Assembly (NCBI GenBank): GCA_019115765.1
Contig: DXCZ01000095.1
Location: forward strand, 1-64,000
From: Candidatus Mediterraneibacter stercoripullorum
GTDB taxonomy: Bacteria > Bacillota > Clostridia > Lachnospirales > Lachnospiraceae
Reading direction: 5' to 3'
DNA: 64,000 nucleotides
The first letter of the stretch is position 1. Every line of letters starts with the position of its first letter. A program made the position numbers and the translations under genes. Below the pieces are notes generated by a model that saw only the letters and a list, made by a program, of their open reading frames with translations, made no database searches and had not been told where the DNA came from. Shown here piece by piece: positions 8,671 through 12,948 of the stretch.

Positions 8671-8728
8671 CAGAGTATGCAGTCGGGTCTCAGCTTCTGT
8701 TCTGATCCAGACTGCGCACTCTGTTTTT
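8671..8728 (+). terminator. Probable intrinsic terminator
   Basis: CAGAGTATGCAGTC ... GACTGCGCACTCTG followed by TTTTT. Confidence 0.6.
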
Positions 8729-8731
8729 CCA

Positions 8732-8790
8732 ATTATGTCAGCTAAAGCTGACCCGAATCCCGCGCCAAGACTCGTGAGCGAGTCTTGAAT
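8732..8790 (+). repeat. Interspersed repeat, truncated copy C (3' 59 bp)
   Basis: Matches the last 59 bp of copy A with 2 substitutions, both in the final hairpin loop region. Confidence 0.9.
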
Positions 8791-12346: not shown

Positions 12347-12628
12347 TCATGCACAGACATTTCCAAGGATTTCTTCCAGTGCGTTTTTGCTGCTTGTATG
12401 GCATCTTACTACATTGGCGTTGCATCTGCCGGCCTCTTCTACAGCACAGCGGACCATCTTATGAGATACAGTATTTGTAAAAAGTACGATCAGATCAGGA
12501 CTTCCGATCTGTTTGCTCAGATTTGCTGACATCTGAGTAAATACTTTTGCCTTACAGTTATACTGTTTACATATTTTCTTATACTGACAAACCATTCTGT
12601 CATGTCCGCCTATGATCACGATACTCAT
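12347..12628 (-). CDS. DUF2325 domain-containing protein
   Basis: MSIVIIGGHDRMVCQYKKICKQYNCKAKVFTQMSANLSKQIGSPDLIVLFTNTVSHKMV; AGGAGG upstream. Confidence 0.8.
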   Translation of the reverse strand: MSIVIIGGHDRMVCQYKKICKQYNCKAKVFTQMSANLSKQIGSPDLIVLFTNTVSHKMVRCAVEEAGRCNANVVRCHTSSKNALEEILGNVCA

Positions 12629-12655: not shown

Positions 12656-12864
12656 ATTCAAGACTCGCTTGCGAGTCTTGGCGCGGGATTCGGGTCAGCT
12701 TTAGCTGACATAATACATCTCCGAATCCCTGCGCAGCCTCGCGGAGCGTATATCAGATGAGGGATTGACACCCGCCACTGATACTGATTTGTCACTCACC
12801 GCCTATAGAGGCGGGAGTCATCCCACATCTGATATAAATGATGTTGGGGTCAAAAGCCCCCAAC
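12656..12864 (-). repeat. Interspersed multi-hairpin element, fullest copy B
   Basis: 12656-12782 matches copy A; additional stems 12749-12776/12810-12836 and 12843-12849/12858-12864. Confidence 0.85.
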
Positions 12865-12889
12865 CATGATGCCTACGGATTGTTCCGTT

Positions 12890-12907
12890 AGTTAGTTATA
12901 TCTAACT
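12890..12907. promoter_or_regulatory. Palindromic operator-like site AGTTAG-TTATAT-CTAACT
   Basis: Same arms and 6-nt spacing as the core of the site upstream of eno. Confidence 0.5.
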
Positions 12908-12919
12908 TTTTATATAAGT

Positions 12920-12948
12920 ATAATACAATAATTGAGAACTGATATCAA
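12920..12948 (-). promoter_or_regulatory. Candidate sigma-70 promoter (TTGATA-17-TATTAT) reading toward DUF2325
   Basis: On the minus strand: TTGATA TCAGTTCTCAATTATTG TATTAT. Confidence 0.5.

Follow-up and report, generated by a model that had tools for sequence, protein, structure and literature searches.

A small hairpin-rich element of Lachnospiraceae, probably moved by an IS200/IS605-like single-strand mechanism

The leader of a DUF2325-like gene in a Mediterraneibacter genome holds a long array of hairpins, and the question it raises is whether this array is a piece of mobile DNA or an RNA that acts on the gene below it. The window analysed here is a stretch of 64,000 nucleotides (contig C61, bases 1-64000) from a Mediterraneibacter MAG of 123 contigs that is 89% complete. 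A first-pass annotation, made from the letters of the window alone, had placed the array at 12656-12886 and offered both hypotheses, a palindrome-type mobile element or a structured RNA acting in cis. We consider it likely that the array is a small transposable element, rich in hairpins and non-autonomous, whose movement follows a single-strand mechanism like that of the IS200/IS605 family.

Limits of the element and its surroundings

The hairpin array in the leader is real and all of the stems that had been listed for the minus strand are present in the sequence, but the interval first given for it was about 55 bp too long, with comparison to empty sites giving 12657-12831 (Table 1). The stem GTTGGGG/CCCCAAC, which had been counted as part of the element, is rejected as such, being already present in the empty site and recurring alone elsewhere. 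The palindrome GCATCATGGTTGGGGGCTTTTGACCCCAACATCAT at 12837-12874 is an independent short repeat that is also found at C43:17448 in the same genome and in several other Mediterraneibacter genomes.

The match of 1-127 on the plus strand to 12656-12782 on the minus strand is borne out, its single mismatch lying at position 23, with the 127-bp length set by an assembly break point and not by a second element end. Position 1 of the window is the start of the contig and lies inside a copy, and many contigs of the assembly begin or end within copies, as would be expected if the assembler had collapsed an exact repeat that exceeds its word length.

Both the 27-nt gap between 12656 and the DUF2325 ATG and the TTGATA-17-TATTAT promoter-like site upstream are in the sequence as reported. 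The DUF2325 gene has its closest relatives in Mediterraneibacter, and the window copy sits between the promoter-like site and the RBS of this gene. It is probably co-transcribed with the gene, and could plausibly, as a side effect, alter how well the DUF2325 mRNA is translated or how stable it is. Just past the -10 box a GTTAG-N4-AACTAAC palindrome (12894-12907) is kept before DUF2325 in close relatives and resembles an operator, perhaps of a DtxR-like regulator.

Table 1. Features of the element and of its surroundings in the window
Feature	Position	Strand	Basis
Complete element, 175 bp, 5'-CAGATG...CTTGAA-3'	12657..12831	-	Empty-site comparison with G069 (CALWLJ010000005.1); same limits in other copies
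Host target 5-mer TATAT, directly 5' of left end	12832..12836	-	Also in empty orthologue
Internal putative guide arm ATATA, 3' foot of left-end hairpin, complementary to target 5-mer	12749..12753	-	Target/guide covariation
Long hairpin at left end, (TATAT)CAGATG...CATCTG(ATATA), enclosing a CCGCC/GGCGG hairpin; module A	12749..12836	-	Folding, alignments
Most conserved block CGCTCCGCGAGG, between left and right parts	12737..12748	-	Alignments
Right-part hairpin GCGCAGGGATTCGG/CCGAATCCCGCGC around GTCAGC-TAAA-GCTGAC (12694-12709)	12681..12734	-	Covariation
Terminal right-end hairpin CAAGACTCGC-AA-GCGAGTCTTG; putative right cleavage point (AA^) 2 nt on	12659..12680	-	Covariation; empty sites for the end
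Further near-identical copy, right 126 bp, truncated by contig start	1..126	+	
Old decayed right-part copy, 53 bits, common to sister genome (L290)	8708..8789	+	
Separate palindromic repeat GTTGGGGGCTTTTGACCCCAAC (GTTGGGG/CCCCAAC), outside element	12843..12864	-	In empty site; independent copies in other genomes
DUF2325-like gene, 93 aa, downstream; start 28 nt past element right end	12347..12628	-	Family name from the first-pass annotation
Sigma-70-like promoter TTGATA-17-TATTAT, upstream	12920..12948	-	Sequence; relatives retain -10 and GTTAG..CTAAC palindrome

Folding, copies and distribution

Read as RNA the minus strand has a folding energy of -116 kcal/mol, where shuffled sequences average -75 (z -8.4) and none of 200 is as good, and folding as DNA gives a similar departure from shuffles (z -8.6). 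The right part of the element consists of three helices, in which 96.7% of pair cells are paired across 40 distinct family sequences, and in the same set changes on both sides are seen in 22 of the 28 pairs, a level that none of 500 shuffles matched; the alignment behind this count was fitted to the covariance model, and the MAFFT alignment A1 is concordant. There are subterminal hairpins at both ends, those of the right part covarying and the left one seen in alignments, with its length and internal loops differing among copies. Neither end is an inverted repeat of the other. Only 18 of about 1080 pairs in the family set are G-U, and overall G-U pairs barely outnumber A-C mismatches, 50 vs 32; such rarity is more in keeping with hairpins of DNA than of RNA. 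A possible TCC/GGA pseudoknot adjoins CGCTCCGCGAGGA.

A search of this genome with the covariance model of the right part returned 48 matches, with the 28 that score at least 103 bits being near-identical to one another, apart from one at 93%, and the remaining 20 or so diverged and older. Bursts of near-identical copies occur in several genomes, such as G441 (94% complete) with nine almost identical copies, and it is shown by these that the element has been amplified recently. Copies range from 125 to 230 nt in length.

Covariance-model searches found the element in 26 of 58 Mediterraneibacter genomes, and in 75 of the 397 Lachnospiraceae genomes sampled (69 of 334 genera), carriers in this sample often having at least 10 copies per genome; restriction to Mediterraneibacter is ruled out by this family-wide search. 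An order-level sample yielded 26 positive genomes from Lachnospiraceae and one from another family, so that this is essentially a Lachnospiraceae family. The plasmid sequences searched contained no match to the element, and viral contigs gave a lone 22-nt hit, which is not an element, with none for a second pattern. Among phage sequences a single diverged copy was found, in the GenBank entry 'Bacteriophage sp.' MT836069 (L391:2210-2294), which from its LysR-type regulator and permease-like genes is probably a mislabelled fragment of a bacterial chromosome.

No Rfam family matched at its gathering score, and a relaxed threshold gave only eukaryotic families far below threshold. Nothing relevant on a Lachnospiraceae repeat of such a kind was found in the open-access literature. 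The element is common in an abundant gut family and recently active, it breaks assemblies, and it is absent from Rfam. Beside one copy, and outside of it, lies a match resembling the Clostridiales-1 RNA (L031:1331-1452), with 41.9 bits against a gathering score of 48.

Insertion, target pairing and orientation

In the sister genome G069 (CALWLJ010000005.1) the DUF2325 leader lacks the element and reads CATCATTTATAT^TTAATAAG at the point of insertion. Three more orthologous pairs, with the empty site found in both directions, read TATAT^CAGGAAC, TATAT^TCAAAGC and, in a diverged case, TACAT^TTATATA. At these four empty sites, all of the TATAT lineage, exactly 175 bp have been added 3' of a pre-existing TATAT (TACAT in one) with neither duplication nor deletion of the target; two further sites, L255 and L284, were also compared and have junctions too diverged to read. 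TATAT accounts for only 0.15% of positions. The base at +1 in recent copies is T in 25, C in 9, A in 2 and G in none, a pyrimidine in 34 of 36.

The 5-mer that lies 5' of the element pairs at all five positions with the internal arm in 88 of 106 copies of the family set, copies that are related and so partly non-independent, although each target was acquired separately; shuffling of guides among the 106 gave a mean of 36 full pairs and a maximum of 49 in 2000 shuffles. The main classes of target and guide in these copies are TATAT/ATATA (54), TTTAT/ATAAA (20) and TTTAA/TTAAA (13). In the genus set all 42 copies with a TATAT or TTTAT target are matched, 35 as TATAT/ATATA and 7 as TTTAT/ATAAA, with no cross-combinations. 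As the 5-mer was outside the element at the empty sites tested, which are of the TATAT class, the covariation is best read as recognition of the target through base pairs with an internal guide. Relative to the foot of the left hairpin, the putative guide arm is on the 3' side and not on the 5' side.

Orientation of the element mostly follows replication. The element strand is the G-rich strand in 38 of 41 copies within Mediterraneibacter regions of about 20 kb, the figure for genes being 83%, and next to genes that run against the fork the element still runs with it at 7 of 8 sites. Within the complete genome G265 the orientation flips with GC skew at 1.5-1.6 Mb (22 of 26 copies, Fisher p 5e-4), while the bias is weaker in the complete genome G392, the skew of which flips between 1.28 and 1.6 Mb and where only 20 of 30 agree. 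The orientation bias is partly confounded with gene direction.

It is against these data that a cis-acting structured RNA, working on the gene below it in the manner of a riboswitch or attenuator and spread by chance, has to be weighed. The strong and covarying secondary structure would suit it, as would the promoter upstream of the window copy, the 55 sense against 6 antisense copies found between co-oriented genes, and the many copies placed 13-80 nt ahead of an RBS and start codon. Sense bias alone, however, does not prove a regulatory role, since the orientation of the element and that of genes both follow the fork, and a riboregulator specific to leaders was dropped after the replication-strand test. 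The adjacent genes are unrelated and, by inspection, vary without pattern, some copies lie inside genes, the scarcity of G-U pairs is unlike a typical RNA, and no Rfam family matched. A cis-acting RNA as the main function, the second of the two hypotheses first offered, is therefore unsupported and we regard it as improbable.

Proposed mechanism, mobilising enzyme and related systems

In the transposition mechanism that we prefer, the mobilising protein would be an HUH-type enzyme that acts in trans and recognises the top strand when this is folded on the lagging-strand template. It would cut 3' of a 5-nt sequence paired with the presumed guide, the arm with which the left-end hairpin ends at its foot, and a second cut would fall past CTTGAA at the right end, with the element then inserted precisely and without target duplication; both the enzyme and the single-stranded intermediate are what we infer. 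IS608 inserts 3' of a tetranucleotide that is read by base pairing and can be re-programmed (PMC5934647), and IS200/IS605 elements such as IS608 and ISDra2 use the lagging-strand template (PMC6006769). The present element is like these two in its insertion 3' of a short left-flank sequence, the absence of target site duplication, subterminal hairpins at both ends, target pairing, +1 base preference and lagging-strand orientation (PMC5934647, PMC6006769). It differs from the IS200/IS605 family in being without tnpA, in a guide that is 3' of the left hairpin (5' in IS608) and forms five Watson-Crick pairs, in a right cleavage 2 nt from the hairpin foot, and in that an IS with the same ends was not found. 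Since searches found neither a related transposase nor a matching end and the position of the guide differs, the element is not filed as a member of that family. The mobile element first suggested, with its likeness to IS200/IS605, has held up strongly as regards mechanism, through the empty sites, guide-target covariation, strand bias and covarying hairpins, but has not emerged as a demonstrated derivative of a known IS.

The question that the element poses is which enzyme moves these copies. An IS or tnpA gene with matching ends was not found in any genome examined, and the Y1 transposase family PF01797 went undetected in six element-rich genomes, G441 among them. The Y1 genes resident in this genome are those of an IS605 (C35), IS200-like copies of two types and two RAYT-like genes, all rejected as the source for having different ends or repeats of their own. 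Nor is any Y1 class common to all carriers. Close-spaced pairs of copies were considered as the ends of an autonomous element and rejected, the intervening genes all being ordinary. Incompleteness of MAGs could hide a Y1 gene in some carriers, though hardly in all unless bins systematically lose mobile genes, and the mobilising enzyme may be a Y1 that has been lost or has escaped detection, or else a different HUH enzyme. PATEs are gene-less, palindrome-associated non-autonomous derivatives of IS200/IS605, presumed to be mobilised in trans by an HUH enzyme. The element shares with them its lack of genes, its palindromes and its presumed HUH mobilisation in trans, but PATE ends are shared with a resident IS and none such was found here.

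Much more tentatively, and with considerably more doubt than belief, the family could be seen as a Lachnospiraceae-wide class of DNA-guided mobile hairpins that depend on an enzyme other than the known Y1 family (PF01797). The target would then be read as a full 5-bp duplex formed with the arm on the 3' side of the left hairpin, and lineages would have re-programmed their targets naturally (TATAT, TTTAT, TTTAA and rarer ones). Editing of the guide can re-target IS608 in the laboratory, and this family is an apparent natural counterpart, in which several lineages show a joint change of guide and target and the outcome is readable from empty sites.

In an RNA-mediated alternative, a transcribed copy might pair with its target in the IBS-EBS manner of group II introns, enter single-stranded DNA at the fork and be reverse transcribed in trans, and the pairing of the 5' target with the internal arm, the lack of target duplication and the Y1 transposases undetected in several element-rich genomes would all allow this, while the homing of endonuclease-less introns could also give fork-linked orientation. 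The ends, however, are CAGATG/CTCAG...CTTGAA in place of GUGYG...AY, the Rfam search gave no match to group II introns or to any other family, G-U pairs are few, and known group II introns are far larger than 125-230 nt, making an RNA-mediated route very unlikely.

Spread of REP/REPIN-type repeats by a RAYT (TnpA-REP) is held to be equally unlikely. REP and REPIN sequences are intergenic hairpins in many copies, for which a Y1 enzyme acting in trans is held responsible (PMC6006769), and the element too is a set of multi-copy intergenic hairpins, placed 3' of a short tag. This genome has RAYT-like proteins, which hit NF047646 just under the cut-off, and many carriers have Y1 proteins as long as a RAYT. 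Against this, the GT[AG]G tag is absent from the hairpin foot, the element has several hairpins in its 125-230 nt, and no RAYT accompanies it consistently: RAYT genes are flanked by other repeats or none, as on C121 where the repeat is a different one, no RAYT-type PF01797 protein was seen in G003, G069, G065, G409 or G392, and six carriers are those in which Y1 went undetected. At L169:3311-4400 a RAYT-like gene is flanked by repeats of its own (TCCCAAATC..., GGGACA...), which form a REP-like family distinct from the element. If the element were a classical MITE that depends on a DDE transposase, it would also be short, gene-less and multi-copy with palindromic ends, but the four empty sites without target duplication, ends that are not inverted repeats and the fork orientation bias leave this reading next to no credence.

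The BOX elements of Streptococcus pneumoniae are modular, strongly folded and intergenic, likely affect co-transcribed genes and are considered parasitic (PMC3049150). The element is similarly modular, strongly folded and intergenic, but belongs to another host family and has a readable, guide-paired insertion, being set apart from BOX by description and not by sequence. In some lineages (L190, L192, L195, L287 and L422) an extra middle module of about 50 nt (GCGCTGAACGTCC...GTAGTGGAACGAAGA) is present, a build of modules like that of BOX.
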